Source: Antedon mediterranea (lineage: Eukaryota > Echinodermata > Crinoidea > Comatulida > Antedonidae). Taken from it: a stretch of DNA of 64,000 nucleotides. How positions within the stretch are numbered: position 1 is the stretch's first letter; every line of letters begins with the position of its first letter. The notes beneath the pieces were generated by a model. The model searched no databases and was not told the origin of the DNA. It saw only the letters and a program-made list of their open reading frames with translations. Positions 51,930 to 54,900 of the stretch are shown piece by piece. A program made the position numbers and the translations under genes. The stretch is taken from NCBI RefSeq assembly GCF_964355755.1, contig NC_092672.1, forward strand, positions 8,494,001 through 8,558,000, given 5' to 3'.

Positions 51930-54900
51930 TTATAGTTTGCAGTTATAACTTTGTGACGCCATAAACTCTTTAACGATTTGTGCCTGACTAGCGTCCACCG
52001 ATTCCATCAAACTATCTAAATTAACCCTTTGCAAAAATGTGTAACATAAATCTTCTTCAACGAGATTACCGTAATCTGACGGCACGTTTGTACCTATGAC
52101 ACGCTTCATACACCGCTCAACATAAAGCGTTCCCAACCAATCAACAACATGGTTTTCCTTTGGTATCACATGTCCTGTACTCCAACACGCAGCTTTCCAA
52201 TATTGCGGTTGCCATAAAAACAAGTGAAAAATATTTGCTGCAACTGCCGCAGATAATCTCTGTAATTTGACAAAACGCATCATTCAATACAGTAGATGTA
52301 CATTTTATGTGTACAGAAAGAAAGATCTTTATAGACTATTTCAGTTGATGTAAAGGTCTGTGTACACTATCAAACTTTTTTTTATGTGACAAAAAAATGT
52401 GATGTGCCCATATATGGACACGATGATATGATCAGGGGCGGATGCAGGATTTTGTGAAAGGGGGGGGGGGGCGCAACTGTATCGAGTCCACACGATTTTG
52501 AAATTAGGCGATTTTGAAAATGTAAAACCTCTAGATGGTCGGAAATGGCAATCTTACGTTAAATAAATGTATTAAAAATTGATATTTTAAATATGAAAAC
52601 TGAGGTACTAGCCTATTAAAGAGTGACATTTTCCCTATAGGCCTATTTTGAGTAAATCGTCACAACAGGGCGTTTCGCGCATGTCAGAGTTTGCACGTAC
52701 ATGGCGGAAAAGGTGCTTTTCCAAGGCCGTCAACAGGACCTGTGATGGTGAAGAGAATTTTGTTAAATGACGCCCCAGATGGCCGGAAGAAATGGTAGGC
52801 CTACTCTCGCACATAAAATTCATGATAAATGGCACCTCTAATTTGCAGGAAAAGACACTCTCATAATAATGCAGCATGCTACCAATGATCAAAACGATCA
52901 TACTTTTTCCCTCCAATAAACACACGTGACTAATTGCAGGACGATATAACATTTTGTTGCCGATTTCATTCACTCAGTATTTAGTTTTGATTGCGTTTAA
53001 TACCCCTTTCACACCAAAAGCAAAACTCCGGAGACACTCCGGAGACACCCCGGAGTTGACGTCCCGCTGTTTGGTGTGAAAGGTAAAATCAAGCAACTCC
53101 GGAGTTTAAAACTGCGGGGTTGAACAGCTGAACATTCTCCGGAGAGAGCGAACTGCGGGGACACCCCGGTGTTTTGGTGTGAAAGGTACCAACATCAAAG
53201 ATTGTATAGCGCCGCGTAGCGGCGCTATACAATCTTTGCCAACATCAAACTCCGGAGTGTTTCGGGTCAAAAGGTCATCCTCACACGATCACTCATTGCT
53301 TTAGTTTTATTTCAAAATACTTTAAATATTTGTACAACATATATAGCGGGTTAAAAAATAATAAGTAGTATCAATAAAACATTATATTACTTCTGAGACT
53401 TTGAAAGTAATTATTAAATTAAACATATTATTAATTAAAATGATTCTAATGATCGTCGCTATGTAAACAAACAAAATAGAGGGCGACATTTACAATTTTA
53501 TTTTATAAACCCCGGAGTTGCTAGGTTGGTGTGAAAGGGGTATCTCCGGAGTTTCTCGACGTTTTGAATGGTCATAAACCCCGGGGTGTCTCCGGAGACA
53601 CTCCGGAGTTTTGGTGTGAAAGGGGTATAAGTTCAATGCGAACGTCCATCTAGGGGAAGCCCTAGAAAAGGCGAGGGTGCGCACCCCCTGGATCCGCCAC
53701 TGATGATGTCATATCACTACCATATTTAAGCACATCACATTTTTTGTCAAACTAATTTGATAGGGTAGATAGAGCTTAAGTCACCTGATCAGTGCACAAG
53801 TATATATCATGGACTATGTAATGGACTATATAATGAAGAAAGGACTTGATGAGTTTAATGGAGAATGGAATGAAGTAGTTACACAATAGTTTAATGGAAA
53901 ATGGATGAAAGTGTTAATATAAGGTCACAATAGTTCTTTAATAAAAAAAAAGCATCAGTACATACCTCATCAGGGTCTCTTTTCAATAGCTTATGGCAAA
54001 CCATTTGAGTGAGGTGATGTTTATTATCCCCAAAAGATGGCAGCTCCGACTCCTGATACGTTCTGCTGTCCAGACGTTTAGAACCAGTGTTCTGTGAAAC
54101 TGAGAAGGGGTTGGGGAGGCCTACTATCTCATATGCAATGGTTGCTGCACTCCATGCATCTGATTTCTGATAATTGATAGTAGAGTGCACCCCTGGAATT
54201 GCTGTTTTGATCTGTAGGATAGAACAAATCTGCAGTAACTGAGAGTAGGTACAGTAAATCATTTTCTTGCTTTTCAAATGTCACAGACACACTTTGCTAT
54301 ATTATTATACCTCACAGTTTTCTACTAAGATGGTTGTTAAAAGGTCAGAGTTAAAATATTATACTTCATCTTATGGTTTAAAAACACAATTGTCACTTGG
54401 CCTAACAAAAGAAACTGAACTCTCTCTCATAAATTTAAGCAACCTCCTCTCACAAAATTAAAACCATCTCTCGCTGTTTTTGTTATTTTGTTCTTATGTC
54501 TAATTTCTTGTTTTGTATTTATATTTAAGTGTGTATGTATTATTTTTCACTGTAAACTTGTTGCACATCTCATTGAGACTGTGCCTCTGATTTAAAAGAG
54601 ATACAATAAAAGTTCAGTTCAGTTCAGTTCAGAAAGTGAAACAAATTTCTGATTTTGTAATGTACCTCTGGAGCCATAAGAGCGCTGTTCCCTCCTTTGT
54701 CAACATATGAACTGGTGTATGGTAAACTCAGACTCCTGTTATCTTGGACTAAGCAGCAACCAAAATCAGTAATCACTAATCTGCAAAAACCTATTTACAG
54801 TAAATACAATGAAAAAAAAAAACAGATTTAGCAACCATTTTTAAGAAACTAATAATGGTAATGCATAATAATTGCTATCAAGTTTGATCATGTTTTAGAA

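Follow-up and report, generated by a model that had tools for sequence, protein, structure and literature searches.

A four-level transposon nest in a PINK1 intron and the probable collapse of its innermost member to a 43 bp hairpin

Introduction

Transposons nested in introns are common, and each such nest raises the question of whether its parts arrived one after another or moved as a unit. One nest, in the last intron of PINK1 of the crinoid Antedon mediterranea, raises a further question, namely how a perfect hairpin of only 43 bp came to lie at its centre. The stretch studied (C3:8494001-8558000, 64,000 nucleotides, hereafter the window) was annotated initially from its sequence, and relatives of each part were then sought across the 354 Mb genome of the same individual assembly. 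Here, we describe the four levels of the nest (Table 1) and weigh how the innermost one may have arisen.

The assignment to an intron is sound because PINK1 matches flank the nest (52351-53779) on both sides, with splice positions being approximate. The gene, on the minus strand, had been called PINK1 at the outset, and rightly so: the exon on the upstream side matches PINK1 kinases with a best E of 1e-12, while the region across the nest continues collinearly into the C-terminal part with a weak score. We imply no role of the nest in PINK1.

Table 1. Positions in the window of the nested elements, their target-site duplications and the bordering exons.
Feature	Positions	Strand	Basis
PINK1 last coding exon (C-terminal), downstream border of intron	51930-52270	-	open frame; weak collinear match
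TAA target duplication, left of M1	52351-52353		same TWA pattern in 7/8 other M1 copies
M1 MITE, left part (level 1)	52354-52432	+	unbroken relatives; PIF/Harbinger-like by duplication
ATGAT 5 bp duplication, left of hAT-like element (also part of M1)	52428-52432		read directly
hAT-like non-autonomous element (level 2)	52433-53702	+	CAGGGGCGG...CCGCCACTG ends; sister copies
TA duplication, left of CTCCGGAG element	53001-53002		read directly
CTCCGGAG element (level 3)	53003-53625	+	CCCCTTTCACACC TIRs; bounds if duplication is TA
CCAACAT 7 bp duplication, left of hairpin	53189-53195		empty-site comparison
43 bp hairpin (level 4), TIR-only form of 454 bp MITE	53196-53238		dispersed copies
CCAACAT 7 bp duplication, right of hairpin	53239-53245		empty-site comparison
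TA duplication, right of CTCCGGAG element	53626-53627		read directly
ATGAT 5 bp duplication, right of hAT-like element	53703-53707		read directly
M1 MITE, right part (level 1)	53708-53776	+	unbroken relatives
TAA target duplication, right of M1	53777-53779		read directly
PINK1 kinase exon, upstream side of intron	53973-54280 (range searched)	-	PINK1 matches, E 1e-12 to 1e-7

Four Levels in One Intron

The four levels are four different non-autonomous DNA transposon families, one inside another. The outermost is a MITE, M1, whose two separated parts join into one element. A first look at the genome gave 4527 candidate relatives, and relatives pass unbroken through the site where the hAT-like element is inserted; the window copy is 91-96% identical to its best sisters. 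Along with TAA on both sides in the window, a TWA duplication of 3 bp was found in seven of the eight other M1 copies read. TIRs, thousands of copies and a TWA duplication are likewise features of PIF/Harbinger-type MITEs, and by its target duplication M1 appears PIF/Harbinger-like. That M1 is split by the hAT-like element had been recognized correctly, but its ends, first placed at 52358-53778, had to be moved to 52354-53776 with the TAA flanks added. Elsewhere in the genome, a 454 bp MITE (L037, C2:16546328) and a hAT-like element (L071, C7:329016) also lie in M1-like sequence, which makes M1 a target of insertion more than once.

The second level begins with CAGGGGCGG, ends with CCGCCACTG and, once the inner insertion is subtracted, measures about 645 bp. 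Sister copies (890 candidates) pass through the site of the third level without that element, at 94-96.5% identity. Longer relatives have extra sequence before the right end, the window copy being internally shortened. In its CAG...CTG ends and inverted terminal repeats, the element is like hAT-like non-autonomous elements with CAGGGGCGGATCCAG ends. However, its duplication is 5 bp long rather than the usual 8 bp of hAT elements. A duplication of 5 bp, and none of 8 bp, was found in the window and at four other copies read (L060, L063, L069 and L071), which is why we name this level hAT-like only. The boundaries initially drawn at 52433-53702 are exact, with ATGAT duplicated on both sides.

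The third level, the CTCCGGAG element, belongs to a family with 419 candidates in the genome and is 623 bp long in the window with the hairpin, or about 573 bp in its closest copies. TA stands on both sides in 7/8 copies read, a duplication consistent with a Tc1/mariner-type MITE that inserts at TA. Although it was rightly placed inside the hAT-like element, its first bounds (53001-53627) wrongly included the duplicated TA. Outside the hairpin, the best sisters are 99.5-99.8% identical to it, and from this we infer that the family was active very recently.

These sisters also provide the empty site for the fourth level. In all seven read, the hairpin is missing and the sequence is GTACCAACATCAAACTCC. 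A wider survey with a junction pattern, allowing up to two mismatches, found about 160 copies of the CTCCGGAG element, among which the window copy is the sole exact junction match, that is, the only one running into the hairpin; among 100 matches listed, nearly all terminate in the C of the empty site. The hairpin itself reads CAAAGATTGTATAGCGCCGC-GTA-GCGGCGCTATACAATCTTTG, its perfect arms of 20 bp enclosing a loop of 3 nt. The initial annotation located it exactly and saw 11 bp repeats at its flanks. The empty copies show that the duplication is instead the 7 bp CCAACAT; an 11 bp duplication is rejected, as the hairpin begins with the additional CAAA and the target happens to continue with the same four bases.

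The Hairpin and the ~454 bp MITE Family

Although first taken for an independent fourth kind of element, the hairpin is a TIR-only form of a longer MITE. Compared by sequence, it corresponds to the two ends of a MITE family of about 454 bp, brought within 3 bp of each other. The family has about 125 candidate copies in the genome, with 55+50 full-length ends. Its copies start CAAAGATTRTATAGCGCCGC-TAC-GCGGCGC-AAGATAGG and finish with the reverse complement (family ends CAAAGATTRTATAGC), so that each end contains a 17 bp near-palindrome, GCGCCGC-NNN-GCGGCGC. Partial losses within this palindrome are seen at three loci (L040, L041 and L108). Duplications of 7 bp flank almost every full-length copy and the majority of short forms.

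The 43 bp form is found at 15-16 unlinked places in the genome. Fourteen of these copies were read with flanks, and each has its own duplication: nine have a perfect one of 7 bp (window included), one has 9 bp (L021), and the remaining four contain one or two mismatches. L033 (C7:10516356) was dropped from the family, having degenerate arms and lacking a duplication. More broadly, ultrashort forms of 33-59 bp occupy about 30 genome places, in lengths of 33, 34, 38, 43, 48 and 59 bp, of which 43 bp is the commonest. Full-length and short forms have the target motif (G/C)TNNNA in common, with T at position 2 in 28 of 31 sites (binomial p 9e-12) and A at position 6 in 24 of 31 (p 1e-7). Among 43 bp copies, the arms and loops come in four variants (A-TAC-G, A-GTA-G, A-A and G-G). 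Matching arms occur in 19/29 short forms vs 5/34 full-length copies (Fisher p 6e-5), a comparison confounded by further subfamilies that share these ends; the excess possibly comes from arm correction or from those subfamilies.

Several loci illustrate the variety of the family. At L031 (C3:627020-627125), a 43 bp hairpin (GTCAGAG) and a 38 bp hairpin (GTTCAGC) lie 23 bp apart, and at C5:25358089-25402601 four identical 33 bp hairpins are spaced by 10-19 kb, probably through segmental duplication. Full-length members at L109, L110 and L042 hold further insertions and thus form more nests. When the flanks of 43 bp copies were joined as empty sites and searched, the matches were dominated by the high-copy host repeat of L027, which has at least 40 empty sister sites. 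A literature search gave no match for ultrashort TIR-only hairpins, which is not proof of their absence.

Collapse in Place or a Mobile Miniature

The hairpin in the window is to be seen as the shrunken remnant of a 454 bp transposon or, just possibly, as a mobile miniature. We put a probability of about 0.7 on the whole of the first reading, in which the nest formed in four steps and the last arrival, an element of about 454 bp, collapsed in place to 43 bp. Such an element would have inserted at CCAACAT and shrunk later through a deletion between its near-palindromes, caused either by slippage over a hairpin or by a gap repair that broke off after excision. As each end holds a near-palindrome, left and right ends match both directly and inverted, and a deletion between them as direct repeats yields exactly the 43 bp form. 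The product would read CAAAGATTRTATA-GCGCCGC-NNN-GCGGCGC-TATAYAATCTTTG, with the target duplication left intact, and other joins between the ends would give the 33, 34, 38, 48 and 59 bp forms, all of which were found.

Direct evidence that such a collapse takes place came from a single locus. A 43 bp copy at L019 (C1:12365425) has 400 bp flanks on each side that are 99% identical to those of L083 (C1:2902882), where a full 454 bp element occupies the same position of the host repeat with the same GTATAAC duplication. With site and duplication shared, collapse in place does happen, at least at this one locus. L035 (identical in place with L083), L038, L040 and L041 likewise have a complete or almost complete copy there, with the same duplication. 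The range of short-form lengths and the partial losses within the end palindrome at L040, L041 and L108 also speak for collapse. In addition, the four combinations of arm and loop among 43 bp copies require several separate origins. The 454 bp family has collapsed repeatedly, at many genome places.

This does not by itself decide what happened in the window, and the alternative would be that the 43 bp hairpin is itself mobile, a 20 bp terminal repeat on each side of a 3 bp spacer, moved by cut-and-paste by the transposase of the family. We regard this as rather unlikely, though several points favour it. The unlinked places of the 43 bp form, with a separate duplication for each copy read with flanks and the same target motif as in full-length copies, count in favour of a mobile unit. 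The host of the window hairpin is very young (0.2-0.5% from its sisters), such that insertion and collapse must both be recent, whereas direct insertion of 43 bp needs one event fewer. The excess of matching arms among short forms is not predicted by simple deletion and also counts against collapse, as do the standing of 43 bp as the commonest short length, the neighbouring short forms at C3:627025 and C3:627091, which have different duplications, and the failure of our search to find an autonomous partner for the family. Against a mobile hairpin stand the collapse in place directly seen at L019, the at least six lengths of short forms and the four arm and loop combinations with the several origins that they require. 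Moreover, given the stiffness of DNA, a paired transposase complex would have difficulty in gripping transposon ends only 3 bp apart. If the hairpin did move, few cut-and-paste elements known from animal nuclei would be as short, and it would stand at the small extreme, setting a new lower limit to transposon size and offering a simple test of the minimum spacing between ends.

A third explanation, that the hairpin was made locally by a fold-back template switch without any transposition, is very improbable. Fold-back template switches do produce perfect hairpins, and the palindrome here is perfect. However, about 14 further loci have the same 43 bp sequence, most of them showing a 7 bp duplication, and the 454 bp family has these arms as its ends. 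The dispersed copies rule out a fold-back as the sole origin, although it could be one step of the collapse.

Order and Age of the Insertions

Each of the four levels has relatives at other places in this genome. For each pair of outer and inner elements, copies of the outer one exist with the inner site empty, and inner elements are also found without the outer ones. The initial annotation had proposed a nest of four levels, and all of them are there, non-random and each with its own duplication. It had also asked whether inner parts always travel with outer ones; the check was run and they do not, as unbroken outer copies exist at every level. That the four parts are a single composite element moving together is accordingly ruled out by the empty-site copies, with virtually no chance left to it: no support was found, inner and outer parts coincide at the window locus only, and inner elements sit at unrelated sites.

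The order first read from the sequence, M1, then the hAT-like element, then the CTCCGGAG element, then the hairpin, stands, borne out by empty sites, duplications and the ranking of divergence. Divergence from sister copies drops inward, from 4-9% for M1 to 4-6% for the hAT-like element and 0.2-0.5% for the CTCCGGAG element, which marks the two inner levels as recent arrivals. The PINK1 intron has taken four successive cut-and-paste insertions, each from a different non-autonomous family: the M1 MITE (TWA), the hAT-like element (5 bp), the CTCCGGAG element (TA) and a member of the CAAAGATT... MITE family (7 bp duplication).

As a whole, the nest dates four transposon families of one genome cleanly relative to one another. 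Its modestly interesting part is the recurrent collapse to ultrashort hairpins, as the family illustrates the repeated paring down of a palindrome-ended MITE to perfect hairpins of 33-59 bp with the duplication kept. Remnants of this kind would normally be overlooked or taken for unexplained palindromes.

Comparison with Known Systems

From the duplication length and target motif, the transposase that moves the innermost family is probably of the P superfamily. The 454 bp family has duplications in the 7-8 bp range of this superfamily and, over 31 sites, a palindromic target preference like GTANTAC. A search of the genome for P-type transposases returned 35 matches, none of which could be tied to the ends of the 454 bp family. 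Among longer TIR pairs, no transposase was found in L109 and L110, read whole, or in two 0.9 kb samples of a pair at C10:23683760-23690048 (L111 and L112) with ends 6.3 kb apart. As autonomous partners, L109 and L110 were rejected, since each is a 454 bp element into which other elements have inserted; both 0.9 kb pieces of the C10 pair are minisatellite-like arrays. Since no transposase was found inside the elements with family ends that were read, "P-like" is a lead and not a statement of membership. Separately, three P-type matches (C1:2823415, C3:37950354 and C8:6208861) have equal scores and open frames of 794 aa, and possibly represent a recently active autonomous P-like element.

One member of the P superfamily in Drosophila, Galileo, makes 7 bp duplications at palindromic targets of the GTANTAC type (PMC4168063, PMC2775673) and has numerous deletion derivatives, some of them reduced to a pair of TIRs around a short spacer (PMC3573991). 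The 454 bp family is like it in its 7 bp duplication, in its fold-back-prone ends, in its deletion derivatives and in its (G/C)TNNNA target, which is weaker than GTANTAC at positions 3-5. In contrast to the TIRs of Galileo, which are hundreds of bp long, the short forms here measure only 33-59 bp in all.

A second likeness is found in primates. MADE1 is a MITE of about 80 bp, a mariner derivative that stems from Hsmar1, makes a TA duplication and has spread as such. Like MADE1, the hairpin comprises scarcely more than its two terminal repeats. The two differ in duplication and size, and also in history: MADE1 spread in its short form, whereas for the 454 bp family collapse in place has been shown at least once.
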